The notes under the pieces were generated by a model. That model saw only the letters and a program-made list of their open reading frames with translations. It ran no database searches and was not told the origin of the DNA. A DNA stretch of 25,755 nucleotides from a virus: positions 1 to 25,755 of the IMG/VR virus record IMGVR_UViG_3300017992_000080. One strand, written 5' to 3'. A program made the position numbers and the translations under genes. This document shows, piece by piece, positions 1 through 10,768 of the stretch (positions are counted from its first letter, which is position 1; each line of letters begins with the position of its first letter).

Positions 1-59
1 AATCAGACGTGAGGTCTGATTACTCTCCCAGTTCAGGGTGATAGAGTAATCAGACCCAC
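1..59. repeat. Palindromic operator-like repeat at the window edge
   Basis: Bases 1-24 are a 27-bp palindrome (arms ATCAGAC / GTCTGAT) cut by the window edge, and 47-55 carries one isolated half-site (TAATCAGAC). These match the sites found between the genes further right, so they probably belong to the cassette of the next gene outside the window. Confidence 0.75.
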
Positions 60-84
60 CTACTCAGGTATGTGAAGAGTAAGT

Positions 85-113
85 AGCCCGGGTCGGGGAG
101 TCCGACCCGGGCT
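85..113 (-). terminator. Hairpin terminator after the 128-349 gene
   Basis: A perfect 12-bp inverted repeat (AGCCCGGGTCGG / CCGACCCGGGCT) surrounds a 5-nt loop, just past the stop codon of the 128-349 gene. Read on the minus strand it is followed by ACTTACTCTTC, which is pyrimidine-rich but not a true T-tract. An intrinsic terminator or a 3' stabilising hairpin is the likely role. Confidence 0.7.
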
Positions 114-127
114 GGGCGTGGCCTGAG

Positions 128-349
128 CTAGCCGTTCAGGACGGCGGCGATCTTGTCGCCCAGGGTCATGTCCCGGTACTGCCCGACCCACTCCCACTCG
201 GAGCGGATCCAGGCCTCGACCTGCTCTCGATCGACGCCCGCCCTGGGCTCCATGGTGACGCCGTCTGGCCCGATGCAGGCGACGTAGGTCGCAGCGTTGC
301 GGAGGGCTCGGGCGAAGCGGGTGAACTCGGTGGAGTGATCGTTCTTCAT
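128..349 (-). CDS. Small unknown early-type protein, 73 aa
   Basis: I do not recognise this protein. It is soluble-looking, with no signal peptide, membrane segment or cysteine cluster, and has an aromatic stretch (WIRSEWEWVGQYRD) in its second half. The start is well fixed: the ATG follows the shared leader block GGAGACACTAGC, giving a Shine-Dalgarno GGAG 8 nt upstream. It is a single-gene cassette with its own promoter (402-429), leader hairpin and 3' hairpin (85-113). Small, individually promoted phage genes of this kind often act on the host early in infection, but that is inference from context only. Confidence 0.8.
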   Translation of the reverse strand: MKNDHSTEFTRFARALRNAATYVACIGPDGVTMEPRAGVDREQVEAWIRSEWEWVGQYRDMTLGDKIAAVLNG

Positions 350-401
350 GCTAGTGTCTCCGTGGTAGTGCGGCTGGGGGCTCCCTTGCCGCGACAGGGA
401 G

Positions 402-429
402 AATGTAGCACAGGATGCTAGGGATGCAA
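402..429 (-). promoter_or_regulatory. Sigma-70-like cassette promoter for the 128-349 gene
   Basis: The -35 is TTGCAT (424-429) and the -10 is TACATT (402-407), with a 16-bp spacer. The first transcribed bases include TGTCGCGGC, shared by the other cassette promoters. The leader can fold as GCGGC...GCCGC before the GGAGACACTA ribosome site. Confidence 0.75.
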
Positions 430-449
430 CCCTGAATCCTGAGAAATCT

Positions 450-472
450 TCACCCTACTCAGGGTAGGGTGA
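450..472. repeat. Inverted repeat 20 bp upstream of the promoter
   Basis: Arms TCACCCTAC / GTAGGGTGA (9 bp) surround a 5-nt loop. On the minus strand it is followed by AGATTTCTC. The same element stands upstream of the promoters at 1047 and 1788. It could be a terminator protecting the cassette from read-through or a protein-binding dyad. Confidence 0.65.
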
Positions 473-483
473 GGCACCCTCCC

Positions 484-579
484 GGTAATCAGACCTGACG
501 TCTGATTACCCAGCACACACGGTAATCAGACCTCACTATCCTGATAGGCCAGAGTAATCAGACGTCAGGTCTGATTACT
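484..579. repeat. Palindrome triplet: palindrome, imperfect repeat, palindrome
   Basis: Two 27-bp palindromes (484-510 and 553-579), each with perfect 11-bp arms (GGTAATCAGAC or AGTAATCAGAC) around a 5-bp centre, flank an imperfect copy at 521-547 in which the right half is CTATCCTGATA. The first palindrome is centred about 102 bp upstream of the predicted start of the 128-349 transcript. The same arrangement recurs at 1129-1224 and 1870-1964. Confidence 0.85.
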
Positions 580-597
580 GGGAGGGTGAAGCGGGTC

Positions 598-623
598 GGG
601 GTGACCCCGTGAGGGGCCACCCC
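598..623 (-). terminator. 3' hairpin after the 632-994 gene
   Basis: An 11-bp stem with one G-U pair (GGGGTGGCCCC / GGGGTCACCCC on the minus strand) closes a TCAC tetraloop directly after the stop codon of the 632-994 gene. There is no T-tract, so it may stabilise the 3' end rather than terminate transcription. Confidence 0.55.
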
Positions 624-631
624 GTTGCGGG

Positions 632-994
632 TCACCAGCTGGAGCTGTAGGTGACCCGGTCCCCGGGTCGGCAGTTGTCGAGCACCTCCGTCACGTCCTG
701 GAGTGCCATGAAGGCGTCCTCCAGGTAGTCTACGTCGTACTCCGTAGACCCGAAGAAGAAGCCTTCGAGCGTGGGCAGCAGCTGCGGGCCCAGCTCACGG
801 CGGTTCACAACCCGCTTGAGGGTGCCTTGCAGCTGGCGCAGCTGCTCGATGGACACAACGTAGGTCCCACAGTCGTCCTGGCCGTCCTGTACGTTCTCCA
901 CGAACCAGCGGTGCAGGGCGTTCGCCTTGCGCCAGTCGAATGCCTTCGTGTGCAGGCCGGGGCGCTCCAGGGTGAGGGTCTGATCAAGTCCCAT
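632..994 (-). CDS. Conserved phage protein of unknown function, 120 aa
   Basis: This belongs to a family I recognise from many phages and prophages. Its hallmarks are the MGLD start, WRKANALHRWFVENVQ near residues 22-36, a DDCGTYVVS segment, and GFFFGSTEYD in the second half. The family has no established function to my knowledge, and the length is typical. The start follows the shared GGAGACACTAGC leader. It forms its own cassette: promoter 1047-1074, gene, 3' hairpin 598-623. Confidence is high that it is a real gene and low for any role. Confidence 0.88.
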   Translation of the reverse strand: MGLDQTLTLERPGLHTKAFDWRKANALHRWFVENVQDGQDDCGTYVVSIEQLRQLQGTLKRVVNRRELGPQLLPTLEGFFFGSTEYDVDYLEDAFMALQDVTEVLDNCRPGDRVTYSSSW

Positions 995-1046
995 GCTAGT
1001 GTCTCCGTAGGTAGTGCGGCTGGAGGCTTCCTGCCGCGACAGAGGG

Positions 1047-1074
1047 AATGTAGCACGGGAGGCTGGGGATGCAA
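1047..1074 (-). promoter_or_regulatory. Cassette promoter for the 632-994 gene
   Basis: The -35 is TTGCAT (1069-1074) and the -10 is TACATT (1047-1052), spacer 16 bp, followed by the CTGTCGCGGC leader start. It is nearly identical to the promoter at 402-429. Confidence 0.75.
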
Positions 1075-1096
1075 GCCTGAATCCGAAGAAATCCTG

Positions 1097-1115
1097 ACCC
1101 TACTCAGGGTAGGGT
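1097..1115. repeat. Inverted repeat upstream of the promoter
   Basis: Arms ACCCTAC / GTAGGGT surround a 5-nt loop, 22 bp behind the -35 box. It overlaps a second dyad at 1115-1129 (TGAGACA / TGTCTCA). It is equivalent to 450-472 and 1833-1861. Confidence 0.6.
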
Positions 1116-1128
1116 GAGACACTGTCTC

Positions 1129-1224
1129 AGTAATCAGACCTCACGTCTGATTACTCAGTCGCCACGGTAATCAGACCTCACTATCCTGATATGCTAGAGT
1201 AATCAGACCTCACGTCTGATTACT
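1129..1224. repeat. Palindrome triplet upstream of the 632-994 cassette
   Basis: Perfect 27-bp palindromes at 1129-1155 and 1198-1224 flank an imperfect copy at 1166-1192. Palindrome centres are 69 bp apart, as in 484-579, and the first is again about 102 bp upstream of the predicted transcription start. Confidence 0.85.
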
Positions 1225-1242
1225 CTGTGATGCGTTCCAATA

Positions 1243-1279
1243 TCTGGGAATCCTGGAGGGTATTTCCAGGATTCCCAGA
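1243..1279 (-). terminator. 15-bp hairpin after the 1288-1500 gene
   Basis: A perfect 15-bp inverted repeat (TCTGGGAATCCTGGA / TCCAGGATTCCCAGA) encloses a 7-nt loop and lies only a few bases after the stop codon. TTCC / GGAA flanks extend the stem. No T-tract follows, so termination is inferred from position and stability. Confidence 0.6.
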
Positions 1280-1287
1280 TGTGGGAA

Positions 1288-1500
1288 CTAGGCGGGGATG
1301 TAGGCGCCCCATCGGCGGAGGCGCGCCCGCATGATATCGGGCGTGAGATCCCCGCGCAGGAACGCCCGATAGGCATTCCGGCGCGTGGAGCCCCCGAAGC
1401 GTACGGCCTCTTCCGCCGCATACGTCCGGAGGAGGCGCCTCCCAGCGCCGTTGAGGCTTCGGAGGCGGGCGAGGAGGCGGGGTCGGTCGATCGTCGTCAT
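1288..1500 (-). CDS. Small arginine-rich protein, 70 aa
   Basis: I do not recognise this protein. It is very basic, with arginines along its whole length (RPRLLARLR, GRRLLR, RARLRRW), which would suit a nucleic-acid-binding role, though that is inference. The start ATG follows CGGAGACACTACC, a second copy of the cassette ribosome-binding block without a second promoter. It therefore appears to be translated from the same transcript as the gene at 1518-1733, 17 bp upstream. A 15-bp hairpin follows the stop. Confidence 0.72.
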   Translation of the reverse strand: MTTIDRPRLLARLRSLNGAGRRLLRTYAAEEAVRFGGSTRRNAYRAFLRGDLTPDIMRARLRRWGAYIPA

Positions 1501-1517
1501 GGTAGTGTCTCCGGGGG

Positions 1518-1733
1518 TTAGCGGGAGGCAGGAAGCTCGCAGCCTTCCTGGCGCCATCGGTTCTCGATAGCTTGAATGTGGTAGTGAGCGAGCGAATCGG
1601 GCATATCGAGCCCGTGCGCGCTGTAGTCCGCACACGCGTCCCGATAGGGCGCCCAGGACAGTCCGCGCCGGTCGTCTTCGATGGCATCGAGGAGGCGGGC
1701 GAGCTTGCTGGGGACATGGAACGGATTCGTCAT
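1518..1733 (-). CDS. Small unknown protein, 71 aa
   Basis: I do not recognise it. It is soluble and mixed in charge, with no membrane segment and a Trp/Tyr-containing middle (LSWAPYRDACADYSAHGLD). The ATG is placed by the cassette block GGAGACACTACC. It is the first gene of a two-gene cassette driven by the promoter at 1788-1815, with the arginine-rich 1288-1500 gene second. A role alongside that neighbour is possible but nothing in the sequence names it. Confidence 0.72.
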   Translation of the reverse strand: MTNPFHVPSKLARLLDAIEDDRRGLSWAPYRDACADYSAHGLDMPDSLAHYHIQAIENRWRQEGCELPASR

Positions 1734-1787
1734 GGTAGTGTCTCCGTAGGTAGTGCGGCGGGAGGCTTCCTCGCCGCGACAAGGGAG

Positions 1788-1815
1788 ATCATAGACCCGG
1801 ATCCGCAGGATGCAA
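1788..1815 (-). promoter_or_regulatory. Cassette promoter for the 1518/1288 gene pair
   Basis: The -35 is TTGCAT (1810-1815) and the -10 is TATGAT (1788-1793), spacer 16 bp. The leader start TTGTCGCGGCG folds with CGCCGC further down, giving the strongest leader hairpin of this subgroup. Confidence 0.78.
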
Positions 1816-1832
1816 GCCTGAATCCGAAGAAA

Positions 1833-1861
1833 GTCTCACCCTACTCAGGGTAGGGTGAGAC
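1833..1861 (-). terminator. 12-bp hairpin with short T-run upstream of the promoter
   Basis: Perfect arms GTCTCACCCTAC / GTAGGGTGAGAC close a 5-nt loop and are followed on the minus strand by TTTCTTC. This is the best terminator-like member of the three related elements (450-472, 1097-1115). It would stop transcripts entering from the right just before the promoter at 1788-1815. Confidence 0.7.
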
Positions 1862-1869
1862 TCTGTCTC

Positions 1870-1964
1870 GGTAATCAGACCTCACGTCTGATTACTCTGA
1901 TGCAGGGTAATCAGACCTCGCTATCCTGATATGCTACGGTAATCAGACCTCACGTCTGATTACT
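1870..1964. repeat. Palindrome triplet upstream of the 1518/1288 cassette
   Basis: Palindromes at 1870-1896 and 1938-1964, each with only the outermost base unpaired, flank an imperfect copy at 1906-1931. Spacing (68 bp between centres) and distance to the predicted transcription start (about 102 bp) repeat those of the two triplets to the left. Confidence 0.85.
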
Positions 1965-1980
1965 CACCCTGTATGGGGTG

Positions 1981-2031
1981 TTCCCAGATCTGGGAATCTG
2001 GGATATATTCCCGAGATTCCCGGATCTGGGA
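1981..2031 (-). terminator. Long imperfect hairpin after the 2038-2259 gene
   Basis: Two arms of about 22 bp (1981-2003 and 2009-2031) surround a 5-nt loop and differ by one substitution and one insertion. The stem repeats CCAGATC / GATCTGG and begins seven bases past the stop codon. It resembles 1243-1279 in sequence (TCTGGGAATC core), so the 3' hairpins are also a repeat family. Confidence 0.65.
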
Positions 2032-2037
2032 TGCGGC

Positions 2038-2259
2038 CTACTTCGGGTCGGGAGCGGACCACGCGAGGGCCGTGAGCCGTTCGAGCTGCGGGGGTTCCAG
2101 CTCCCCGATCCAGCGGAACGGGGAGCGCTGCAGCTGCCGCGCCTTCTCTTCGAGGTAGCCTTGCGCCTCGTCCCCGTGTACCCACGCAACGACGACGGCG
2201 GGAGGGGTGCTAAAGAGGGCGCGGGCGAGGTGGAGGATCGTCTTCGCTTCGTTCGACAT
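2038..2259 (-). CDS. Small unknown early-type protein, 73 aa
   Basis: I do not recognise it. It has a hydrophobic stretch (ALFSTPPAVVVAWVHG, around residues 14-29) too short and proline-broken for a clear membrane helix, then a charged amphipathic half. The ATG follows the cassette block CGGAGACACAAGC. It is a single-gene cassette with promoter 2312-2339 and a strong 3' hairpin at 1981-2031. Function unknown. Confidence 0.75.
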   Translation of the reverse strand: MSNEAKTILHLARALFSTPPAVVVAWVHGDEAQGYLEEKARQLQRSPFRWIGELEPPQLERLTALAWSAPDPK

Positions 2260-2311
2260 GCTTGTGTCTCCGTGGTAGTGCGGCGGGAGGCTCCCTTGCC
2301 GCGACAGTGAA

Positions 2312-2339
2312 ATCATAGACCCTAGTTCGGAGGGTTCAA
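2312..2339 (-). promoter_or_regulatory. Cassette promoter for the 2038-2259 gene
   Basis: The -35 is TTGAAC (2334-2339) and the -10 is TATGAT (2312-2317), spacer 16 bp. The CTGTCGCGGC leader start is present. The hairpin seen upstream of the other promoters is degenerate here (2361-2380). Confidence 0.72.
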
Positions 2340-2401
2340 GCCTATTCCCGGAGAAATCCTGACCCTACTCAGGGTGTGGTGAGGGGCCCCCAGGAGGCCT
2401 A

Positions 2402-2765
2402 CAGTAATCAGACCCGACTATCCTGATATCACGGTAATCAGACCTCACGTCTGATTACTGTGGTGCAGGATAATCAGACCCGACTATCCTGATATCACGG
2501 TAATCAGACCTCACTATCCTGATATCGCCCCGTTCAGGGTGAGACGGTAATCAGACCTCGCTATCCTGATATGCTCTGATGAGGGTGAGACGGTAAGCAG
2601 ACCTCGCTATCCTGATACGCCACGATAATCGGACCCCGCTATCCTGATATGCATGCGGCAGGGTAAGCAGACCCCTGCCACGGTAAGCAGACCGCCTTAT
2701 CCTCATACCGAGACCGAGAGTAAGCAGACCGAGACCGAGAGTAAGCAGCCCGCCTTACTGAGACC
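2402..2765. repeat. Non-coding repeat array of operator-like half-sites
   Basis: This stretch holds no gene. It contains one full palindrome (2433-2459) and about eight imperfect 25-30 bp copies beginning TAATCAGAC, TAAGCAGAC or TAATCGGAC and usually ending CTATCCTGATA. Copies start near 2403, 2470, 2500, 2547, 2593, 2624, 2662 and 2683. After 2705 the motif changes to ACCGAGACCGAGAGTAAGCAG units. All copies point the same way. Candidate roles are an operator cluster, origin iterons or a partition-like site; the sequence does not decide between them. Confidence 0.8.
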
Positions 2766-2770
2766 GAGAA

Positions 2771-2841
2771 TTCCCATCCCCGGGAACGTGCTCACTTTCC
2801 AGCACATTCCCGGGGATGGGAAGGAGGGGGATTTCTCCCCC
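2771..2841 (-). terminator. Double hairpin after the GP88-family gene
   Basis: Two hairpins follow the stop codon at 2848. The first (2826-2841) has a GGGGGA / TCCCCC stem closing GAAA, a GNRA tetraloop, when read on the minus strand. The second (2771-2822) is a perfect 16-bp inverted repeat (TTCCCATCCCCGGGAA) with an inner GTGCT / AGCAC stem, followed by TTCTC. Together they should terminate transcription or block 3' exonucleases. Confidence 0.7.
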
Positions 2842-2847
2842 TTTCCC

Positions 2848-3495
2848 CTAGTGTTTCCCGTAGCTCACCAGGGGAACCTCCCGGTCCCAGCATGCCCGGC
2901 AATCCCGGCACTCGTTCCCTTGATCGGGCGCCGGGCACGTCCGGCCGGACGTGCGGACCATGCTCCGGACGGCCCACGCGGGGAGGGATTCGGTCGGCTC
3001 CCGGTCGATCATAGCGCCGGACACGCGGATCGTGAGATTCGGGGGCGGGGTCCACCCGTTCCGCTCAGCCTCCCGAAGGATCCCCCGCTCTTGCGTCGGG
3101 AGCCAGAACCGGACGCCCGGAAGGGCCGACGCGATGCGCCCGATGGCTTCCAGCATCGCGAGCCCCTGCAGGTCCCCGCTATCGAACCAGCGGAAGACGT
3201 CGCGCCCGGCCTTCGCGATGCTCGCGACCATAGCAGCCTCCCACGCCGCCGGGTTGGCGTTGTAGAGGGCCAGACGCCGCTCAAGGGCCCCCTGCACGTT
3301 CCGGAAGACGTAGCGCCCTTTCAGAGCGTAGCAGCCGGAGCAGGGGGACCCCTTGACCTTCCGGAGCAGCGAGCCCATCCCGCACGCTTGCGCGGGGATG
3401 CTCCACCCGAAGGAAGGCATCTTGGAAGGCTTGCTGAGCCCCCCGGTGATGGCGTCAAGCGCCTTCCAGCTAGCGGACGAGGTGAGCGTGGTCAT
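2848..3495 (-). CDS. GP88-family phage protein, 215 aa
   Basis: I recognise this as the mycobacteriophage gene-product-88 type family found in many phages, of unsettled biochemical function. Visible hallmarks are IPAQACGMGSLLRKVKGSPCSGCYALKG (residues 33-60, given as two adjoining pieces IPAQACGMGS and LLRKVKGSPCSGCYALKG), a FRWFDSGDLQ segment in the middle, and a C-terminal Cys cluster at about residues 187, 196, 199 and 202 (CPAPDQGNECRDCRACWD). The seven or so conserved cysteines suggest metal or cluster binding. The start ATG follows GGAGATACGCTC. It has its own promoter (3545-3572) and double 3' hairpin. Confidence 0.82.
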   Translation of the reverse strand: MTTLTSSASWKALDAITGGLSKPSKMPSFGWSIPAQACGMGSLLRKVKGSPCSGCYALKGRYVFRNVQGALERRLALYNANPAAWEAAMVASIAKAGRDVFRWFDSGDLQGLAMLEAIGRIASALPGVRFWLPTQERGILREAERNGWTPPPNLTIRVSGAMIDREPTESLPAWAVRSMVRTSGRTCPAPDQGNECRDCRACWDREVPLVSYGKH

Positions 3496-3544
3496 GAGCG
3501 TATCTCCGTAGGTAGCGCGCGGGACCATCCCCGCGACAAGGGAG

Positions 3545-3572
3545 AATATAGCCGGGGATCCCGGGGATGCAA
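3545..3572 (-). promoter_or_regulatory. Cassette promoter for the GP88-family gene
   Basis: The -35 is TTGCAT (3567-3572) and the -10 is TATATT (3545-3550), spacer 16 bp. The leader differs from the rest: TTGTCGCGGGGATGGTCCCGCG, in which GCGGG / CCCGC can pair, given here as TTGTCGCGGGG then ATGGTCCCGCG. Confidence 0.75.
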
Positions 3573-3633
3573 GCCTGAATTCGGAGAAATCCTCACCCTA
3601 CCCTGAACAGGGAGAGGGGCGCCCCCGGGGCCC

Positions 3634-4010
3634 ACAATAAGCAGACCCCGCTATCCTCATACCCCCAGAGTAATCAGACCTGACGTCTGATTACTCTGGC
3701 GCCGGGTAATCAGACCTCGCTATCCTCATATCAGGGTAATCAGACCTCGCTATCCTCATATCAGGGTAATCAGACCTGGTTATCCTGATATCAGGGTAAT
3801 CAGACCTCACTATCCTGATATCAGGGTAATCAGACCTCACGTCTGATTACTCTGGCACAGGGTAAGCAGACCCCGCTATCCTGATATGGACGATAATCAG
3901 ACCTGACGCCTGATTACTCTGGCGCAGGGTAATCAGACCTCACTATCCTGATATCAGGGTAAGCAGACCCGACTATCCTCATAGCAGGGTAATCAGACGT
4001 GATTGTCCTG
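3634..4010. repeat. Repeat array with four tandem 30-bp units
   Basis: No gene is present. Four head-to-tail 30-bp units occupy 3706-3825 (starts 3706, 3736, 3766, 3796), each beginning GTAATCAGAC and ending ATATCAGG. A perfect palindrome follows immediately at 3825-3851. Other palindromes are at 3669-3695 and, degenerate, at 3892-3918. Single imperfect copies lie at 3634-3660, 3861-3887, 3929-3956 and 3958-3984. Thirty bp is close to three helical turns, so proteins bound to the units would lie on one DNA face. Confidence 0.85.
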
Positions 4011-4190
4011 AGACCGAGACCGAGAGTAAGCAGACCGACTTACTGAGACCGAGACCGAGAGTAAGTAGGGTAAATTACCCATACCGAGACCGAGAGTAAT
4101 CAGACCGACTTGCCCATACCGAGACCGAGACCGAGAGTAATCAGACCGACTCATACCGAGACCGAGACCGAGACCGAGGGTAATCAGCCC
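4008..4190. repeat. GAGACC hexamer repeats interleaved with half-sites
   Basis: Runs of two to four GAGACC hexamers alternate with GAGAGTAAGCAGACCGACTT-type units (dyad AGTAAG / CTTACT). The run length grows from left to right, reaching four hexamers near 4160-4180. Two similar units occur at 2705-2765. No coding signal is seen. Confidence 0.8.
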
Positions 4191-4239
4191 ATGTTACACC
4201 AATGGGGCCAACGGTAATCGGACAGAGGGAGCGTGTGAC

Positions 4240-4625
4240 GGCATGCGGTCGGGCTGGTATGCTGTCGGGCCGGTCGGGCCGGTCGGGCTGGTCAGTCTGG
4301 TAGGCTGGTCGGGCCGGTAGGCTGGTCAGGCTGGTAGGGCGGTCAGGCTGGTATGCGTGTAGGGCGGTCGGGCTGGTAGGGCTGGTAGGGCGGTAGGCTG
4401 GTAGGCTGGTATGCTGGTAGGGCGGTAGGCTGGTATGCTGGTAGGGCGGTCGGGCTGGTATGCGTGTATGTGTGTATGCTGGTAGGCCGGTACGCTGGTG
4501 CGCTACTGGTAGGCTGGCCGTGCTGGGCGTGCTACAGGCCGTGCTGGGCGTGCTGCTGGCGTGCTGCTGGCGTGCTACAGGCCGTGCTGGCGTTAGGCGT
4601 CTTGTTCGGCATATGCTCACTACCG
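4240..4625. repeat. G/T-rich degenerate short tandem repeat
   Basis: About 380 bp of degenerate units of roughly 9-10 bp built on GGTAGGCT, GGTCGGGCT and GGTATGCT, changing after 4500 to CGTGCTGGCGTGCTACAGGC-like units. The plus strand is G/T-rich and the minus strand C/A-rich. Many units contain GCTGGTNGG, one base longer than the E. coli Chi octamer, but exact GCTGGTGG is absent. I see no gene. Confidence 0.8.
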
Positions 4626-4902
4626 CTTAAGGTTAGTCCTGAAGAAGCGGAGGTGTTCCAGGGCGTGATCTAGTTGCGAGGGTTGTTGGTCATCACTCGT
4701 TCTTTCTTCCTTTCCCCTTATACCGTAACCCATAACAAGATACCTATCACATATAGCACTGCTGCTATGTATAGATCTAAGTTCTTGTCAGATAAGCACT
4801 TACGACACATTTAGACTTATAACCCCCATGGGAAGCTCGCTTTTCTTGGCCTATTTCTACGCACTTGTGCGTATGTTCATTAAGTGGTCTCGCAGGCCTT
4901 AA
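4626..4902. other. AT-richer gene-free stretch
   Basis: This is clearly less GC-rich than its surroundings and I find no convincing gene on either strand. It holds two small dyads: TAGCA / TGCTA near 4765-4780 and the near-perfect palindrome TACGCACTTGTGCGTA at 4858-4873. An AT-rich block flanked by repeat arrays on one side and a long inverted repeat on the other would suit a replication origin or a junction of transcription units; this is inference. Confidence 0.5.
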
Positions 4903-5003
4903 AATCGACGATTAGAGAGCGAATTTCGGCTTCTGTGAAGTGGTATGAGTTCTGTGTCATGTCAACCCCACGGAAGCCAGAATTCGATCTCTAATCGTCG
5001 ATT
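4903..5003 (-). terminator. Long inverted repeat after the 5017-5205 gene
   Basis: Perfect 16-bp arms (AATCGACGATTAGAGA / TCTCTAATCGTCGATT) lie at 4903-4918 and 4988-5003. The stem continues imperfectly inward through GCGAATT / AATTCGA and GGCTTCTGTG / CACGGAAGCC, leaving a loop of about 32 nt. On the minus strand the outer arm is followed by TT and then AAGG. It stands just past the stop of the last gene in this group, so termination is the simplest reading, but its length is unusual. Confidence 0.65.
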
Positions 5004-5016
5004 ATCCCATGCTGAG

Positions 5017-5205
5017 TTAGCAGATCTCGATGGTGTCCGGATCGACGTCGTTCCTGGAGGCCCAGCGCCATGCGTACTCGTACGCGTTGTCCAGGAAGTA
5101 GACGGCGGGGGATTCCTCGGGGAGGGAGACGTTCATGCGCGTTCTGATCTCCTCTCCGTCGCTGTCAAGCGCAGAGATGAGGAATTCCTTCGTCTCGTAA
5201 GCCAT
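5017..5205 (-). CDS. Small unknown acidic protein, 62 aa
   Basis: I do not recognise it. The ATG is fixed by a strong ribosome site, AAAGGAGAT, 8 nt upstream; a longer in-frame reading to the right lacks one and would overlap the neighbouring gene. The protein is acidic with an aromatic segment (YEYAWRWASRNDVDP) near the C-terminus. It sits 59 bp behind the 5265-5510 gene and has no cassette promoter, so it should be co-transcribed with that gene from 5565-5592. A long hairpin follows. Confidence 0.75.
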   Translation of the reverse strand: MAYETKEFLISALDSDGEEIRTRMNVSLPEESPAVYFLDNAYEYAWRWASRNDVDPDTIEIC

Positions 5206-5264
5206 GGTATCTATCTCCTTTCTTGGTTGTCGGGGTGTGAGTCTGGCTAGCTTATGGGAGGTGA

Positions 5265-5510
5265 TCAGGCGGCCTTCACGCCCAGCGTCTCCAGGGTCTC
5301 CTCGTCGAAGCCCTTCCACGCCTGGAGAAGAGCGTAGGCCTCCTGGATGGCGTCGGCGTCGGAGGTGGCCTCCAGCTCCTGACGGAGGGCGATCATGCCG
5401 TTCATGGTGTAGATGGCGAGGCCGAAGGCACCCTTGCGCTCGTAGACCATCGCGTCGAGAAGCCGGGGAGCGGAGAGGAGCAGGTCGTAGGGGAGGTCCA
5501 GCTTGTACAT
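5265..5510 (-). CDS. Small unknown protein, 81 aa
   Basis: I do not recognise it. It looks like a compact helical soluble protein (repeated Leu/Ala heptad-like spacing: DLLLSAPRLLDAM, AIQEAYALLQAWKGF). The start follows the leader block CAGGAGACACTACG. It is the first gene of a cassette with 5017-5205 behind it. The leader from 5511 to 5560 is almost identical to that of the 5647-6045 gene, so the two should be regulated alike. Confidence 0.78.
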   Translation of the reverse strand: MYKLDLPYDLLLSAPRLLDAMVYERKGAFGLAIYTMNGMIALRQELEATSDADAIQEAYALLQAWKGFDEETLETLGVKAA

Positions 5511-5564
5511 CGTAGTGTCTCCTGTGTTGGGGTGGTGTTGGTGCCGCCTTGTTGCGACAGAGGG

Positions 5565-5592
5565 AATATAGCCTGGGAAGGCGAGATCTCAA
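5565..5592 (-). promoter_or_regulatory. Cassette promoter with -35 inside an inverted repeat
   Basis: The -35 is TTGAGA (5587-5592) and the -10 is TATATT (5565-5570), spacer 16 bp. The -35 box overlaps the near arm of the inverted repeat 5580-5625. The leader starts CTGTCGCAACAAGGCGGC instead of the GTCGCGGC form used to the left. Confidence 0.78.
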
Positions 5593-5625
5593 GTAGATTC
5601 TCGGGAAACTTCCTGAGATCTCGCC
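5580..5625. repeat. 12-bp inverted repeat overlapping the promoter
   Basis: Perfect arms GGCGAGATCTCA (5580-5591) and TGAGATCTCGCC (5614-5625) are separated by 22 bp. Each arm contains the 8-bp palindrome GAGATCTC. It could be a two-site operator two helical turns apart, or a large-loop terminator of the upstream transcript sharing DNA with the promoter. Confidence 0.8.
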
Positions 5626-5646
5626 CGAGGGTGAGAGGTGAGGGGA

Positions 5647-6045
5647 TCAGGCGGGCAGGAAGCCCGTCTCCTCCGTCAGGCTGCCCAGCTCGCGGGCCTT
5701 GCTGGGACGCTTGAAGTACGACACGGCGCCGTTCTTGGACTCGGACACGGAGGAGGCCTTGAAGGCCACCACGGCGCTCGCTTGGAACCCGATGAGGGCC
5801 TTCGGCTTCGTGCCGAAGTACACCTCCCCGTTGCGTCCGACGACCCGCATCGTGACGCGGGGAGTAGACGGCCAGCCACGGCGGGCGTTGTAGTGCGCGT
5901 CAGCGAGGTCGCTCTTCGTGACCCCCTCCCACACGATCACGCCCGTGATCATGCCTTCGACCTCCGGGATGGCACGGAGGGCGGTGGTGGTGGGAACCTC
6001 CATGTACGTGCTGGACTTGCGCGTGATGGTGTAGGTCTTGACCAT
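5647..6045 (-). CDS. Unknown beta-rich protein, 132 aa
   Basis: I do not recognise it. The composition (many V, T and K, short strands such as GMITGVIVWEG and RVTMRVVGRNGEVYFG) suggests a small beta-rich soluble domain followed by a basic tail. There is no signal peptide or membrane segment. The ATG follows GGAGACACTACC. It is a single-gene cassette from promoter 6100-6127, and its leader is nearly the same sequence as that of 5265-5510. Confidence 0.8.
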   Translation of the reverse strand: MVKTYTITRKSSTYMEVPTTTALRAIPEVEGMITGVIVWEGVTKSDLADAHYNARRGWPSTPRVTMRVVGRNGEVYFGTKPKALIGFQASAVVAFKASSVSESKNGAVSYFKRPSKARELGSLTEETGFLPA

Positions 6046-6099
6046 GGTAGTGTCTCCTGTGTTGGTGTGGTGTTGGTGCCGCCTTGTTGCGACAGGGGG

Positions 6100-6127
6100 A
6101 ATATAGCAGAGGCTGGCGAGATCTCAA
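6100..6127 (-). promoter_or_regulatory. Cassette promoter for the 5647-6045 gene
   Basis: The -35 is TTGAGA (6122-6127) and the -10 is TATATT (6100-6105), spacer 16 bp. It overlaps the inverted repeat 6115-6159 and is followed by the CTGTCGCAACAAGGC leader start. Confidence 0.78.
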
Positions 6128-6159
6128 GTAGCTTCGTTGGAAAGTTTCGAGATCTCGCC
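6115..6159. repeat. 11-bp inverted repeat overlapping the promoter
   Basis: Arms GGCGAGATCTC (6115-6125) and GAGATCTCGCC (6149-6159) are separated by 23 bp. It is the same family as 5580-5625. The right part lies only a few bases from the stop of the 6170-6541 gene. Confidence 0.8.
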
Positions 6160-6169
6160 CTAGGCTGGG

Positions 6170-6541
6170 CTAGAACAGCCAGCCCCCGACCATCATGTGC
6201 ATCGCGTGGATGGCCCCCTCGGCCTGCTCCAGGGTGCAGCTGGGCGGCAGCATCTCGGACCCGAGGGTGGCGGTCGGGGCGACCTCAGGATCCAGCACCA
6301 GGGAGCAGCGGACCTCCAGCTGGCCGTCGTACCCGGCACGATCGCGGATCACGCACTCCAGGTGCCAGCCCTTGGGAGCGAACCCGTCGAACCACTCCAT
6401 CTTGTCCTTGATGGACAGGATGCGCTGGCAGGTATCGTCGGACTCGCGCTGGAGTTCCCATGCATCGACGACGTACTGGCCGTGCAGCGTGAGGGTGGAG
6501 CGGGAGGAGGAGAGCTTGATCTCGTGGATGGTGTTCTGCAT
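6170..6541 (-). CDS. Unknown protein, 123 aa, without a ribosome-binding site
   Basis: I do not recognise it. It is a soluble protein beginning MQNTIHEIKLSSS, with a central aromatic segment (KMEWFDGFAPKGWHLECVIRD) and a C-terminal Met-rich helix. The start is less secure than its neighbours': the leader matches the other cassettes up to CCCCAACACAG, then the GGAGACACTAC block is missing and ACGCC runs straight into ATG. The same loss is seen at 7614. The frame is otherwise open and cassette-like, with promoter 6590-6617. Confidence 0.75.
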   Translation of the reverse strand: MQNTIHEIKLSSSRSTLTLHGQYVVDAWELQRESDDTCQRILSIKDKMEWFDGFAPKGWHLECVIRDRAGYDGQLEVRCSLVLDPEVAPTATLGSEMLPPSCTLEQAEGAIHAMHMMVGGWLF

Positions 6542-6589
6542 GGCGTCTGTGTTGGGGTGGCGTTGGTGTCGCCTTGTTGCGACAGGGAG

Positions 6590-6617
6590 AATGTAGCCGA
6601 GGAACCCTGGATCTCAA
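6590..6617 (-). promoter_or_regulatory. Cassette promoter for the 6170-6541 gene
   Basis: The -35 is TTGAGA (6612-6617) and the -10 is TACATT (6590-6595), spacer 16 bp. It is followed by the CTGTCGCAACAAGGC leader start. Confidence 0.75.
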
Positions 6618-6645
6618 GCATCTTCTGCCAGAAATCCAGGGTTCC
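6601..6645. repeat. 12-bp inverted repeat overlapping the promoter, different arm sequence
   Basis: Perfect arms GGAACCCTGGAT (6601-6612) and ATCCAGGGTTCC (6634-6645) are separated by 21 bp. The geometry matches 5580-5625 and 6115-6159 while the arm sequence is largely different. Such covariation would be expected if pairing in RNA mattered rather than a fixed protein-binding sequence. Confidence 0.78.
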
Positions 6646-6685
6646 GTAACCTCTTGCAGCCAAACAGCTTATGACGGTCGCGGCG

Positions 6686-6991
6686 CTAGTCCCACGAGAA
6701 GGAGCCCTCAGCCTCCATCCCGAAGATCGCCGTCGCCCCCTCGTCGCGCAGGATACCGTCGATGGCGAGGATCCCCGAACCCTCGGTCAGCAGGCGGACG
6801 GCCAGCTTGCGGAGCAGCGTGGCCGCCGCCTCCGTCTCGCAGTTGTACCCCTGCGTCAGCTCGGCGTAGTCCGCCGCCTGCACGAAGTACTCGACGTCCT
6901 CACGACCGAAGCTGTCCATCGCCATCAGCTGGCGCAGTTCGTCGAGTGCCTCGATGCTGTTCGCCGTCATCTCCCAGTACGTCTTCTGCAT
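6686..6991 (-). CDS. Unknown acidic protein, 101 aa
   Basis: I do not recognise it. It is acidic and Ala/Leu-rich, probably helical (SIEALDELRQLMAMDSFG, AAATLLRKLAVRLL). I chose the ATG at 6991 (MQKTYWEMT...), because GGTGGAAGAC lies just before it and the cassette neighbours also begin MQ. A GTG at 7009 would add six residues and overlap the stop of 7006-7203. It is the second gene of the cassette from promoter 7262-7289. Confidence 0.72.
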   Translation of the reverse strand: MQKTYWEMTANSIEALDELRQLMAMDSFGREDVEYFVQAADYAELTQGYNCETEAAATLLRKLAVRLLTEGSGILAIDGILRDEGATAIFGMEAEGSFSWD

Positions 6992-7005
6992 GTCTTCCAC
7001 CGGAC

Positions 7006-7203
7006 TCACGCGGTCTCGTCAAGAGGTTTTTCGGTTTCGATGTCGAGAATCTTTTGAATTGCCCTATTGAGAGTCGGGTAGTCCTTCCTCCACTTCTCCC
7101 AGGCTTCGTCGTTCATCCACGCTACGCCACGTTCTAGGTCGGTTGCGAGCGCCTCGTACAGGTCGTCCTGAATGTCCTTGATGATGTTCTTCACGTTCTG
7201 CAT
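7006..7203 (-). CDS. Small unknown charged protein, 65 aa
   Basis: I do not recognise it. It is a charged helical protein (NVKNIIKDIQDDLYEALATDLE) with a Trp-rich middle (WMNDEAWEKWRKDYP). The ATG follows a slightly weakened block, AGGGGACACTACC. It is first in a two-gene cassette, with 6686-6991 directly behind and probably translationally coupled. Confidence 0.75.
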   Translation of the reverse strand: MQNVKNIIKDIQDDLYEALATDLERGVAWMNDEAWEKWRKDYPTLNRAIQKILDIETEKPLDETA

Positions 7204-7261
7204 GGTAGTGTCCCCTGTGTTGGGGTGGCGTGTCGCGGCGCCTTGTCGCGCCGACAGGGAG

Positions 7262-7320
7262 AATCTAGCCGAGGAACCCGGGATCTCAAGTAGATTCTTG
7301 GGAAACTTCCTGAGATCTCG
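7262..7320 (-). promoter_or_regulatory. Cassette promoter with a mismatched, hybrid inverted repeat
   Basis: The -35 is TTGAGA (7284-7289) and the -10 is TAGATT (7262-7267), spacer 16 bp. Near the promoter the arm is of the GGAACCCGGGATCTCA type, like 6601-6612. The far arm (7311-7322) is TGAGATCTCGCC, like 5614-5625. The two arms therefore pair only over about 8 bp (GATCTCA / TGAGATC), as if two cassettes had recombined. Confidence 0.7.
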
Positions 7321-7332
7321 CCCGAGGTGGGG

Positions 7333-7614
7333 TCAAGGCTGGACCTCGACGTGGAAGAGGCCGCAGAAGTGCGAGTCGAGGTCCAGGCGGTGGTGGGTGC
7401 GGCTGTTGTCGCTGTAGATGACCTCCACGTCGAACTTGTCGTAGCCAGGGTGGGTGAGGTCGTTGGCTGCCCTGGTCAGGTCGTCGTTCATCAGGTAGGC
7501 TTGTGTCGTGGTGTAGACCCGGGTTTCCCCGACGGGCCAGCGGTCGTCGGCGCGGCCCTCACCACGGGAGATGACGTAGGCGAGGCGGGCGGGCTTGGTG
7601 ATGGCGTTCTGCAT
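7333..7614 (-). CDS. Small unknown protein, 93 aa, without a normal ribosome site
   Basis: I do not recognise it. It starts MQNAITKPARLAYVISRGEGR and ends in a beta-rich half with FDVEVIYSD and a HRLDLDSHFCGLFHVEV tail. As in the 6170-6541 gene, the GGAGACACTAC block before the ATG is absent and replaced by ACACACGCC. An AAGGAGG does exist about 25 nt upstream, in the loop of the leader hairpin (CGCGGC / GCCGCG), too far for ordinary initiation. Single-gene cassette, promoter 7663-7690. Confidence 0.72.
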   Translation of the reverse strand: MQNAITKPARLAYVISRGEGRADDRWPVGETRVYTTTQAYLMNDDLTRAANDLTHPGYDKFDVEVIYSDNSRTHHRLDLDSHFCGLFHVEVQP

Positions 7615-7662
7615 GGCGTGTGTTGTTGTTGGTTGGCGCGGCCTCCTTGCCGCGACGGAGAG

Positions 7663-7690
7663 AATCTAGCCTGAGTAGGCGAGACCTCAA
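7663..7690 (-). promoter_or_regulatory. Cassette promoter for the 7333-7614 gene
   Basis: The -35 is TTGAGG (7685-7690) and the -10 is TAGATT (7663-7668), spacer 16 bp, followed by CCGTCGCGGC. The near arm (GGCGAGACCTCA) of the GAGATCTC-type repeat is present but its partner is missing; tRNA-Arg begins 38 bp away. Confidence 0.72.
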
Positions 7691-7727
7691 GCACTACTTG
7701 ACGGAAATCCGCGCAGGCTGACGTAAG

Positions 7728-7804
7728 TGGCGCGCCCGGCAGGACTTGAACCTGCGGCCCTCGGATTAGGAATCCGATGCTCTATCCTGCTGAGCTACGG
7801 GCGC
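7728..7804 (-). tRNA. tRNA-Arg (anticodon CCU)
   Basis: A complete cloverleaf is visible on the minus strand: acceptor GCGCCCG / CGGGCGC, D arm GCTC...GAGC, anticodon stem TCGGA / TCCGA around TTCCTAA, T arm GCAGG / CCTGC with TTCAAGT, discriminator G and encoded CCA. Anticodon CCU reads AGG, usually a rare Arg codon in GC-rich bacteria. It would support translation of phage genes that use AGG. Confidence 0.95.
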
Positions 7805-8016
7805 GTGGGGAGGGTGACCCGCCTGCCCGGCATACGACACACATGACGTGTGACGCACGCTTTGCACGCTACCACCCGTGCTCGACGGGCAGACGGATCG
7901 AAGGAGACACCTACCACGAGGTGTTCAAAAACGGTGGGTGACAGAACAGGCCAACCCACCTGACTCCAGCCGACAGCGACGCCAATAACCGCAGCCGGAG
8001 TGTACGCGACACCGAT
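7805..8016 (-). other. Gene-free stretch between tRNA-Arg and the 8017-8508 gene
   Basis: I find no gene here. It contains the terminator at 7927-7960 and, closer to the tRNA, small dyads (CACACATGACGTGTG at 7850-7864). A GGTGTCTCC / GGAGACACC pair at 7904-7924 resembles the cassette ribosome-site block on the opposite strand. No promoter of the cassette type is seen for the tRNA. Confidence 0.5.
7927..7960 (-). terminator. Rho-independent terminator after the 8017-8508 gene
   Basis: On the minus strand, GGTGGGT / ACCCACC pair around a 14-nt loop and are followed by GTTTTTG. This is the clearest classical terminator in the left half of the window and ends the transcript of the 8560 and 8017 genes. 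Confidence 0.78.
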
Positions 8017-8508
8017 TTAGACCGAGACCGGGACGTCCCACCAGTAGGGTTCGAGACGACCCCATCGCCAGCTAGCGATATCCGCCTTGGCGCCCATGTA
8101 GTACCTTCGGTAGGCCGAAACAGCGTCGCCTTCTACCTTGTACTCGTCGGGCATGCACTGCGGGGGCTCCGTGAACCCGATAGTGGGGAGGTCTGGGTTG
8201 TTGGCAAGCGGAGACTTTAGCTTGGCCCAAGACATATGAACCTTCTCGCGGCGGTAGAAGAACTCGTTAGTCAGCTCACGGAAAAGCTCATAGAGCCAGC
8301 TATAGTTGTCCTGTGAAGCACGTGCCCAGATCGCAGACGGGTGATTCTTGTGCGTGCTCTTGTAAACTAGGTCGGAGTAAATGCTGTCCGTCTCCCGGTG
8401 AGCGGTGCTTAGAAGTTGGGCAGTCTCAAGGATCATCTTTCCGACGTGAACGTCAGCGTGATATTGAGCGCAGATACGGGGGTCGTGATCGAGGTAGAAG
8501 ATGTTCAC
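8017..8508 (-). CDS. Conserved phage protein, possibly pyrimidine-dimer-glycosylase-like annotation, 163 aa
   Basis: I recognise a family common in cyanophages and other large phages: MNIFYLDHDP start, YHADVHVGKMILETAQLLST (residues 16-35), THKNHPSAIWARAS (52-65), NYSWLYELF, and MPDEYKV near residue 119. It is sometimes annotated as a pyrimidine dimer DNA glycosylase, but I know of no firm activity and the conserved His/Lys/Glu pattern is the main clue to an enzyme. The start is GTG, with CGGAGAAACCAA upstream. It follows the hexapeptide gene by 51 bp and ends at the terminator 7927-7960. Confidence 0.82.
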   Translation of the reverse strand: MNIFYLDHDPRICAQYHADVHVGKMILETAQLLSTAHRETDSIYSDLVYKSTHKNHPSAIWARASQDNYSWLYELFRELTNEFFYRREKVHMSWAKLKSPLANNPDLPTIGFTEPPQCMPDEYKVEGDAVSAYRRYYMGAKADIASWRWGRLEPYWWDVPVSV

Positions 8509-8559
8509 TTGGTTTCTCCGTACTTAGCCTGTAGTTCTTCTAGTAGCTTCCTTTCCTTA

Positions 8560-8964
8560 CTAATTTACTTCTTCCACTCCACACACCTCGGCATAATCAC
8601 ACACCATAGCAGTACCATGCACCCAGGCATTACCATACACCAAGGCAGTACCAAACACCCTGGCATTATCATACACCCTGGCATAATCATACACCTTGGC
8701 ATTACCAAACACCTTAGTACTATCATACACCTTGGCATAGCCAAACACCTTGGCATTGCCATACACCAAGGCATCTTCGCCAATATAGGCAGTATCAGCA
8801 ACATAGGCAGTATTAGCTACCCAACCACCGATACTACCATCAGGGTTCTTGTGCCTATGGGCAGGAACAGGTCCATTACCAAAATCAAAGGTAGTGGTTT
8901 CTTGTTCAGTCTTCAGGCTCTCAATGATTGCCTCAAGGCTTTTGATGATTTCTTGGTTATTCAT
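8560..8964 (-). CDS. Left-handed beta-helix hexapeptide-repeat protein, 134 aa
   Basis: From about residue 46 the protein is a run of six-residue repeats of the form (Y/F)GNA(K/R)V, (Y/F)DYAKV and similar, at least twelve copies. This is the signature of a left-handed beta-helix. The N-terminus (residues 1-22) is a helical segment rich in E, L and K, which could mediate trimer formation. Such folds occur in acyltransferases and carbonic anhydrases but no catalytic His or cofactor site is evident here, so a structural role is as likely. The ATG follows GGAGGGCTAGATACG. The coding DNA is far more AT-rich than its neighbours, suggesting recent acquisition. Confidence 0.85.
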   Translation of the reverse strand: MNNQEIIKSLEAIIESLKTEQETTTFDFGNGPVPAHRHKNPDGSIGGWVANTAYVADTAYIGEDALVYGNAKVFGYAKVYDSTKVFGNAKVYDYARVYDNARVFGTALVYGNAWVHGTAMVCDYAEVCGVEEVN

Positions 8965-8983
8965 CGTATCTAGCCCTCCGTTG

Positions 8984-9175
8984 TCAAATGCAGTGCTTGC
9001 GCTCTTCGGCGTCAAACGCAGCGACCCAGTCCTGCCCGTGGCTCTCAGCGATCTCGCGGTACTTGCGGATCGCGTCGCACCCACGGCGATACGCCGACGG
9101 GTCCTCAGACATCATGTAGTACCAGTCAAGCCAACGAAGGCGCTCGACAAACTCCTCAAAGGTGATCTCGTTCAT
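8984..9175 (-). CDS. Small unknown charged protein, 63 aa
   Basis: I do not recognise it. It is a charged, helical, Trp/Tyr-rich protein (FVERLRWLDWYYMMSEDPSAYRR given as FVERLRWLDW then YYMMSEDPSAYRR) with no membrane segment. The leader from the promoter at 9229-9256 has the best-formed leader hairpin of all cassettes (GTCGTGGC / GCCGCGAC). The ribosome site is weak: CACATAAACTACC precedes the ATG. The hexapeptide gene follows 19 bp behind, so both may be read from this promoter. Confidence 0.72.
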   Translation of the reverse strand: MNEITFEEFVERLRWLDWYYMMSEDPSAYRRGCDAIRKYREIAESHGQDWVAAFDAEERKHCI

Positions 9176-9228
9176 GGTAGTTTATGTGGTTGAGTTCGAG
9201 TCGCGGCTCTCCTTGCCACGACGAAGAG

Positions 9229-9256
9229 ATTATAGGCCATGAGCGCCCGGGTTCAA
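9229..9256 (-). promoter_or_regulatory. Cassette promoter with consensus -10
   Basis: The -35 is TTGAAC (9251-9256) and the -10 is the consensus TATAAT (9229-9234), spacer 16 bp. An 8-bp leader hairpin with an AAGGAGA loop starts about 10 nt downstream. The promoter overlaps the stop of the 9259-9705 gene. Confidence 0.8.
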
Positions 9257-9258
9257 GC

Positions 9259-9705
9259 TCAATCCGTGAACTTCTTGCTGAAGTACGTGACGTTCCTAAC
9301 CCAATGCCGATTCAGGCCTTCCTTGTCCCTCGGGTCGTCAACTGGACAGTACTTAGCCCCTAGATAGGCGATAAACTCGCCTTTACTGCCAGCCTTCTTC
9401 CATCTATCGTAGTTCTTCTGCACGGTGGCAGCGCACCATCCAGCCTGCGACCTGTAGGTCGGCTTCACCCTGGGGTGGAGGATGCCGTACTCCCGGCCTC
9501 GCCCTCCATTCTCCGCGTACCGGATTGCAGCCACGATAGGTGCAAGCCGATCGCGGCACTCCGGTCGAACGTTGACCTCGATCGCATCTACAAACGAGGC
9601 CGCGCACGCTTTCCCGTCCTTGGCCTCGATGGCCTTGCTGGCCGACGCGCCAGCCTGCCCGAAGGCGAGGCTGGCAAGCGCGACCATAGCAACGAGGACC
9701 CTCAT
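9259..9705 (-). CDS. Exported lysozyme/transglycosylase-like protein, 148 aa
   Basis: Residues 1-22 form a signal peptide (MRVLVAMVALASLAFGQAGA, cleavage probably after an AxA near 20-22). The mature part holds IRYAENGGRGREYGILHP (61-78), which looks like a lysozyme-fold transglycosylase core with Glu65 as the candidate catalytic acid, and YRSQAGWCAATVQKNYDRW (84-102), a segment I associate with phage peptidoglycan-degrading proteins. Four cysteines could pair in the periplasm. Role in lysis or in spanning the cell wall is inference; a purely structural secreted protein is the alternative. Its ATG overlaps the stop of the 9702-9932 gene (ATGA). Confidence 0.65.
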   Translation of the reverse strand: MRVLVAMVALASLAFGQAGASASKAIEAKDGKACAASFVDAIEVNVRPECRDRLAPIVAAIRYAENGGRGREYGILHPRVKPTYRSQAGWCAATVQKNYDRWKKAGSKGEFIAYLGAKYCPVDDPRDKEGLNRHWVRNVTYFSKKFTD

Positions 9706-9932
9706 CGCACCACCCTCGGCTCACCGTCCTTCTGGCAGTCCGCGCACACGGCGAAAACGACGATCTCGGCCCGCCCGAGGCGCTTCTCGAACGCCTCCCA
9801 GACGTGACCGCCCACGGTGAAGTAGTCGCCAGTGGACTCCTTGTAGGGGTCAACCAGAGCGTCCAAGCACTTGGAGCAGTGCAGCGGCTCATACCGGACT
9901 CGCCACTGGTACTCCGAGATCTTACGGATCAC
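9702..9932 (-). CDS. Small zinc-ribbon-like protein, 76 aa
   Basis: Two CxxC pairs, C19/C22 and C63/C66 (HCSKC and VCADC), frame a 40-residue middle, the layout of a zinc ribbon. I cannot assign a partner; such phage proteins often bind nucleic acid or act as adaptors. The start is GTG, with GGAGGTGG shortly upstream, and overlaps the stop of the 9929-10156 gene by four bases, so coupled translation is likely. Confidence 0.78.
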   Translation of the reverse strand: MIRKISEYQWRVRYEPLHCSKCLDALVDPYKESTGDYFTVGGHVWEAFEKRLGRAEIVVFAVCADCQKDGEPRVVR

Positions 9933-10156
9933 AGCACCACCTCCACGTTGTCGATGACCACGTCGTTGTGCAGGCCGAGATAGCCGTGCTTGCCCGTACG
10001 GAAGTTGTGAACGTAGACGTACCAGTTCTTGTCAGCAGCCTGAAAGGGTTGTTCGGTGCCGCCGTTGGCGATGACCCACGCATCGCGGCGCGCCATCCTG
10101 GCCTGCTCGTACTCCAGCTTGTGACGCTGGACTTGCTCGTCGTCGTAGTGGTACAT
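9929..10156 (-). CDS. Small unknown protein, 75 aa
   Basis: I do not recognise it. The N-terminal 26 residues are charged and helical (YDDEQVQRHKLEYEQARM), followed by a Trp/Tyr-rich beta-like part (NWYVYVHNFRTGKHGYLG). The ATG is set by the cassette block AGGAGACACGAGC. It opens a three-gene unit with 9702-9932 and 9259-9705 from promoter 10207-10235. Confidence 0.78.
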   Translation of the reverse strand: MYHYDDEQVQRHKLEYEQARMARRDAWVIANGGTEQPFQAADKNWYVYVHNFRTGKHGYLGLHNDVVIDNVEVVL

Positions 10157-10206
10157 GCTCGTGTCTCCTGGTAGGTGAAACGCCGCCCCCGTTGGCGACA
10201 GGGGGA

Positions 10207-10235
10207 ATATCGCACGGGGGCGGCCAGAACTCAAG
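10207..10235 (-). promoter_or_regulatory. Cassette promoter for the 10156-9259 unit
   Basis: The -35 is TTGAGT (10230-10235) and the -10 is GATATT (10207-10212) with a 17-bp spacer, followed by CCCCTGTCGCCAACGG. The upstream region runs into the end of the 10253-10582 gene, so no inverted repeat is preserved. Confidence 0.68.
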
Positions 10236-10252
10236 CCATTTCGAGAGGAAAT

Positions 10253-10582
10253 CTACTCGAACTCTCCCGGAACGGAGTTCTGCCGAATCAGCTTGACCTC
10301 GTCCTTGATCTTGTGCAGCACGTAGCACTGATCCGCAGCCCTGTCAGCGATGTCGAACACAACGCTCAGAGCGTTGAACATCGCCATCGTGGCTACGAAG
10401 CCGACCACGGACAGGACCATGCCTATGGCGGCAGACACGTAGCTGAACGCGCCGTTGTACGAGAGGGCGTACAAAAGCGTGCCAACAGATACGGCGAACT
10501 CAATCGCACACGCGCAGAGACCGAGAAGCGTCAGGAGCGCGATGATGCTGCGCGCACCCTTGTAGTTAGTTGCATCAGTCAT
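10253..10582 (-). CDS. Small membrane protein with two helices, 109 aa
   Basis: Two hydrophobic segments are clear: about residues 12-40 (SIIALLTLLGLCACAIEF onward) and 46-74 (VSAAIGMVLSVVGFVATMAM). A 35-residue charged C-terminal tail (IKDEVKLIRQN) follows, probably cytoplasmic. The ATG at 10582 follows GAGGATTCTT and overlaps the stop of the acidic gene 10575-10766 by 8 bp. A holin role is conceivable given the lysozyme-like gene downstream, but the tail is long and there is no further evidence. Confidence 0.78.
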   Translation of the reverse strand: MTDATNYKGARSIIALLTLLGLCACAIEFAVSVGTLLYALSYNGAFSYVSAAIGMVLSVVGFVATMAMFNALSVVFDIADRAADQCYVLHKIKDEVKLIRQNSVPGEFE

Positions 10583-10766: not shown

Positions 10767-10768
10767 GG

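Follow-up and report, generated by a model that had tools for sequence, protein, structure and literature searches.

Repeated short DNA elements are known from several systems. In Bacillus phage SPbeta a 15-bp motif, SPBRE, is found in about ten promoter regions and is bound by MrpR, a recombinase-like repressor and the master regulator of the phage (PMC10516654). The stoperators of Cluster A mycobacteriophages are 13-bp asymmetric sites, distributed genome-wide, which stop elongation (PMC6550527, PMC9283540). Cluster O mycobacteriophages carry 17-bp palindromes of unknown function, single and genome-wide, a good part of them within genes (PMC4351075), and Cluster K mycobacteriophages have SAS and ESAS elements, the SAS being located at the translation start (PMC3203893). 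A further kind is the iteron replication origin, of which P1 RepA is an example (PMC7157519).

The locus described here belongs to a previously undescribed environmental phage and lies in a 25.8-kb virus record (the window, 25,755 nucleotides, which is the whole stretch analysed). About 40 copies of a short palindromic motif form regular arrays before at least five early-gene promoters. As with SPBRE and MrpR, a single motif recurs in several of the phage's intergenic promoter regions (here five, predicted), but its sites are grouped upstream of the promoter into ordered arrays of 3 to about 12 units and come in two half-site types. The many copies of a phage-specific motif, with a putative regulatory role, recall the Cluster A stoperators, to which the first-pass annotation had likened them. 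That likeness fails where it was tested: the sites are palindromic or composite and not 13-bp asymmetric, and they are clustered within about 4.2 kb, upstream of promoters, and not spread genome-wide. The broader suggestion of dispersed operators near early promoters is still the best reading. Like the Cluster O phages, this phage has a short palindrome in more than 30 copies whose centre varies, but it differs from them in the regular arrays and fixed promoter distances. It resembles the Cluster K elements in having a repeated cassette with inverted repeats before a subset of small genes, but the arrays precede the predicted transcription start site (TSS) by about 90-170 bp or more. Tandem units about 30 bp long, next to AT-rich DNA, are reminiscent of an iteron origin, but here the sites are repeated at five promoters. 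Most likely, the arrangement is of a known kind but unusually well ordered.

Site arrays and their units

Six site arrays lie between window positions 1 and 4223 (Table 1), and this number is a minimum since the window starts inside an array. The first-pass annotation had reported three identical palindrome triplets. The triplets do exist, with their palindromes at the positions reported and a start-to-start spacing of 69, 69 and 68 bp, but they are not identical, and they are part of the six-array family. The element between the two palindromes, earlier taken for an imperfect copy, is present as a composite unit, GTAATCAGACCTCRC-TATCCTGATA.

Table 1. Arrays, genes and other features of the early region, in window coordinates
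Feature	Position	Strand	Remarks
Array 0	1-55		Truncated by contig end; palindrome 1-23 and half-site 46-55
Array 1, triplet palindrome/composite/palindrome	484-579		Palindromes 484-510 and 553-579; upstream of gene 128-349
Array 2, triplet	1129-1224		Palindromes 1129-1155 and 1198-1224; upstream of gene 632-994
Array 3, triplet	1870-1964		Palindromes 1870-1896 and 1938-1964; upstream of genes 1518-1733 and 1288-1500
Array 4, 1 palindrome and 7 composites	2403-2760		Degenerate half-sites near end; upstream of gene 2038-2259
Array 5, 3 palindromes and 9 composites	3636-4223		30-bp period; upstream of GP88 gene
Small early gene	128-349	-	No family match
Small early gene	632-994	-	phrog_7971 (unknown function)
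Small early gene, 70 aa, arginine-rich	1288-1500	-	No family match
Small early gene	1518-1733	-	No family match
Small early gene	2038-2259	-	No family match
GP88-family protein	2848-3495	-	PF17338
Predicted promoter, cassette 1	402-429	-	TTGCAT-16-TACATT
Predicted promoter, cassette 2	1047-1074	-	TTGCAT-16-TACATT
Predicted promoter, cassette 4	1788-1815	-	TTGCAT-16-TATGAT
Predicted promoter, cassette 5	2312-2339	-	TTGAAC-16-TATGAT
Predicted promoter, cassette 6	3545-3572	-	TTGCAT-16-TATATT
Second dyad, cassette 1	451-471		CACCCTAC-CCTGA-GTAGGGTG; about -66 from predicted TSS
Second dyad, similar copy	1097-1115		
Second dyad, similar copy	1834-1860		
AT-rich non-coding stretch	4650-4850		Ranks second in AT content among 200-bp stretches of the phage; candidate unwinding element in the case of an origin at the array

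The units fall into two main types, 10 full palindromes of the form GTAATCAGAC-N5-GTCTGATTAC and 19 composites of the form GTAATCAGAC-N5-TATCCTGATA, in which the second half-site is exchanged for TATCCTGATA. Further half-sites beyond the ordered units decay into CCGAGA-rich repeats, and array 5 ends in such a degenerate tail. The centres of the palindromes vary, as had been noted, but they are of two types and not three: when both strands are considered these are CTCAC and CTGAC, GTCAG being CTGAC on the other strand. In the composite runs the half-site cores flip orientation every 15 bp, while in the palindromes the cores are 14 bp apart and usually followed by a gap of 22-23 bp.

The sites are confined to the early region. 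Half-site GTAATCAGAC, with at most one mismatch, gave 46 matches compared to 1.1 expected, all of them within window positions 14-4223, and the full-palindrome pattern with at most three mismatches gave 10 matches in the window and none in 100 shuffles. Exact TAATCAGAC is absent from a 70.9-kb sister contig of the same phage except at the corresponding end, the other 68 kb or so being free of sites. When the three triplets were pooled in a gapped alignment, 226/240 were identical in the sites (~94%) as compared to 24/56 in the spacers (~43%), a conservation judged from this phage and the strain nearly identical to it; a Fisher P for the difference is indicative only, because the pairwise comparisons are not independent.

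The palindromes follow the end of one gene and precede the next promoter. They fold as RNA at about -14 kcal/mol and could thus be hairpins in read-through transcripts, acting in processing or termination or as antitoxin-like or crRNA-like repeats. We consider such a role extremely unlikely: the hairpin is impossible in 19 of the 29 units, namely the composites, which mostly fold at about -3 kcal/mol, and the dyad-breaking changes in them (T to G in 5/19, G to C in 5/19) are uncompensated. In the Rfam search only a tRNA reached the gathering score, with no match at that score in the array region. It appears that the half-sites, and not the pairing, are conserved, and since the composites cannot form RNA hairpins and their changes are uncompensated, recognition of half-sites in the DNA is favoured. 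A CRISPR-like reading was rejected, as the units are not set apart by unique spacers of constant length.

Promoter cassettes and early genes

Every complete array sits upstream of a repeated cassette with a sigma70-like promoter and a leader, and there are five such array-bearing cassettes; their promoters and TSSs are predictions from sequence match alone. Read along the minus strand, a second dyad (approximately TCACCCTACCCTGAGTAGGGTGA) is followed by the promoter with its 16-bp spacer, then by a conserved start region (CTGTCGCGGCAAGG...) and lastly by a leader that ends in or near GGAGACACTA ahead of the ATG. The second dyad, which may be a terminator-like hairpin, is degenerate in cassettes 5 and 6.

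In each of the three cassettes that start with a palindrome, 78 bp separate the first half-site from the -10 hexamer, and in both of those that start with a composite, 87 bp. The palindrome-first layout proposed earlier is therefore valid at three promoters, but the last two start with a composite and have a second fixed distance. Where the palindrome comes first, 90 bp separate its centre from the start of the -10 hexamer downstream (3/3), and with the TSS placed about 12 nt beyond, the reported distance of about 102 bp was confirmed. From every array site to the predicted -35 box downstream, the distance exceeds about 50 bp. Array and second dyad are separated by sequence that diverges strongly in most cassette pairs but is similar in cassettes 2 and 4 (8/9) and 5 and 6 (13/18), so that shared descent contributes to the constant distances. 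Duplication of cassettes, already put forward as an explanation of the spacing, clearly contributes, since promoter, leader and second dyad are repeated as well, and the fixed distances could in part reflect it.

The -35 boxes are weaker at all five array promoters (TTGCAT, TTGAAC) than at the early promoters without arrays (TTGAGA). The latter belong to other early genes (5508-6690), which have the same start region and no array. It was also possible to observe long inverted repeats at array-free early promoters (5575-5640, 6105-6165 and 6600-6650), the right arm overlapping the -35 box; their arms, GGCGAGATCTC...GAGATCTCGCC and CCTGGAT...ATCCAGG for instance, differ between promoters and stay complementary.

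A comparison of the genes downstream of the arrays bore out that they are unrelated to one another. The family search of the genes between the arrays gave GP88 and one PHROG family of unknown function, and nothing else. The recognisable genes of the window are all on the minus strand. Their products are a UvsX/RecA-like recombinase, SSB, a RuvC-like resolvase, SbcC/D-like proteins, dCMP deaminases, a sigma factor and a probable small terminase subunit, and many small genes are among them. Among the proteins scanned, which are a part of the phage's proteins, there was no cognate repressor, motif-binding protein or initiator, and no family match pointing to an MrpR-like protein (tyrosine-recombinase fold) was seen. 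A 545-aa protein (15693-17330) was considered as a regulator and rejected, having no match in Pfam or PHROG and a marginal PDB match to a peptidase. At 8560-8820, 18-bp tandem repeats code for a beta-solenoid-like repeat protein (PF18836).

Strain differences, neighbouring DNA and relatives

The sister contig, IMGVR_UViG_3300028895_000202, overlaps the window from 1727 to 25755, window positions 1-1727 reaching past its end. Outside the array region the two are about 99.9% identical (99.991% over the 10.8 kb of 4632-15478), and recombinase or capsid proteins are 100% identical in three shorter contigs. Between 1727 and 4247 there are eight substitutions, several of them close to where the sister contig ends and its assembly is least reliable. 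Four are in palindromes, one borders the GGCTGGTA repeats and the remainder are in non-coding DNA of the cassettes; none was found in the 877 coding bases counted. Two of the substitutions convert one palindrome centre from CTCAC to GTCAG, and as this variant is already present in array 1, an exchange between array copies is suggested. Simple repeats of the GGCTGGTA type occupy 4230-4631, and about 270 bp of them are missing in the sister contig, which is either a real length variation or an assembly collapse.

Such observations would also fit a minisatellite that has spread by slippage and cassette duplication and been homogenised in the absence of selection. Promoter and leader are duplicated together with the sites, degenerate CCGAGA repeats and the GGCTGGTA repeats, part of which the sister contig lacks, adjoin the arrays, and the palindrome variants of one strain are found elsewhere in the arrays, as exchange would produce. 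We regard non-functional repeats as clearly unlikely all the same, because the sites are far more conserved than the spacers, which are of constant length, the distances to the -10 hexamer are exact in two classes, and the orientation alternates in the ordered part.

A replication origin is the main rival to a regulatory role, as the largest array has an AT-rich non-coding stretch beside it (Table 1). The arrays would then be iterons that bind a phage initiator, the AT-rich stretch would melt, and the smaller promoter arrays would be secondary, for copy control or autoregulation. Tandem 30-bp units are found in one locus beside this stretch, as in iteron origins, a long inverted repeat was seen by eye near 4905-5003, and the distant relative Vibrio phage SSP002 (NC_041910) has 23-24-bp tandem repeats near a ParB-like gene in a comparable part of the genome. 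An origin would, however, not need five separate arrays at fixed promoter distances, the GC skew has no clean switch at the array, and an initiator is missing from the proteins scanned, so that we hold this explanation to be possible but unlikely. The SSP002 repeats (65265-65311 and 68156-68202 of that record) contain AAGTGCCTAGG, flank the ParB-like gene in opposite orientation and are possibly partition or origin sites. SSP002 also has the heptamer TTASTAA 300 times in 76 kb, as compared to 13 expected from dinucleotides, evenly spread and in all frames; the sister contig of the window has only 3 copies, and a literature search linking the heptamer to Vibrio phages found no paper.

The nearest annotated phages are distant Vibrio mardecaviruses, with a capsid identity of about 45% over aligned pieces and a gene order partly in common. 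Viral contigs, bacterial and archaeal genomes, a phage BLAST and capsid relatives were searched, and the array was seen in no sequence other than the same phage; no independent, diverged relative that carries it was found, and the early genes occurred in this setting in near-identical strains only. The palindrome pattern search of viral contigs and the promoter leader search both matched the same phage only. In 84,980 bacterial and archaeal genomes the pattern gave single or paired palindromes in unrelated contexts and no arrays. One such case is the AT-rich Treponema MAG JAAYQG01, with four TAATCAGAC-N5-GTCTGATTA palindromes over three contigs, two of them 204 bp apart, which are probably an unrelated hairpin repeat. 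When window positions 1-8000 were compared by BLAST with 50,697 phages, tRNA matches came out on top and the array was absent. Relatives chosen by capsid protein lacked the motif, 2 of the 11 searched having one chance-like site with three mismatches, and five of them, like SSP002, had other repeats on inspection but not the array lattice.

These searches also bear on the idea that the arrays are partition or packaging sites, or sites of a host global regulator, which appears very improbable. A ParB-like protein is encoded by the related SSP002, and control of phage genes by a host regulator has a precedent in CtrA of alphaproteobacterial phages (PMC9437464). Against this, BLAST from SSP002 to the phage and the scanned proteins gave no ParB match, and the motif arrays are absent from the bacterial genomes searched.

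Repeats of other kinds were observed in the relatives. The contig ends of IMGVR_UViG_3300034409_000017 have tandem arrays of 11-13 bp (types GGATTTCATTT and GGATTGCATTT) and 87-bp repeats. In a distant relative with 38% capsid identity, IMGVR_UViG_3300036857_000320, seven hammerhead-ribozyme-like elements are found at about 55780-60610, each just ahead of a small gene. The core CTGATGAGTCC...GGACGAAAC is present in five of the seven and a variant core in two, the closing stem is like CCCG/CGGG, and stem III is variable but self-complementary. Four were matched to the hammerhead by Rfam with scores short of the gathering threshold (35.2 bits at best, E 4e-5), and the other three were judged by sequence only. 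Elements are located at 16284-16339, 16797-16853, 17275-17331 and 18578-18634 in piece L261 of this record.

A possible role in early gene control

We think it probable, but by no means certain, that the arrays are clustered operators or upstream activating sites for a DNA-binding protein with a block of small early genes under its control. This putative sequence-specific protein, encoded by the phage or its host, would recognise half-site GTAATCAGAC, and its binding unit would be two opposed half-sites in the palindromes, or one half-site and the related TATCCTGATA in the composites. In this reading the stacking of units would let neighbouring protein molecules bind cooperatively, and the bound complex, at a fixed distance beyond about 50 bp on the upstream side of the -35 box, would stimulate a weak sigma70-like promoter. 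Because the sites are that far upstream and the -35 boxes are weaker, stimulation is likelier than a steric block, and an upstream activator is more likely than a promoter-blocking repressor; repression by looping or spreading is possible. Arrays and promoter cassettes may have spread over the early region through duplication and exchange between copies, with selection preserving the sites, their spacing and their distance to the promoter. A bolder version, which we find quite improbable, is that one phage protein forms an ordered filament on the lattice of alternating half-sites, and both opens an origin at the largest array and switches on the neighbouring early promoters, while the lattice has been copied to a place before every early gene as a mobile control module.

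Should the arrays have a regulatory role, the phage would have kept one long-range control module nearly identical before several unrelated early genes. The two interchangeable half-site types and the two exact promoter distances would then amount to a compact natural experiment on the dependence of promoter output on spacing and site number, and the motif would serve as a probe to fish out the DNA-binding protein.
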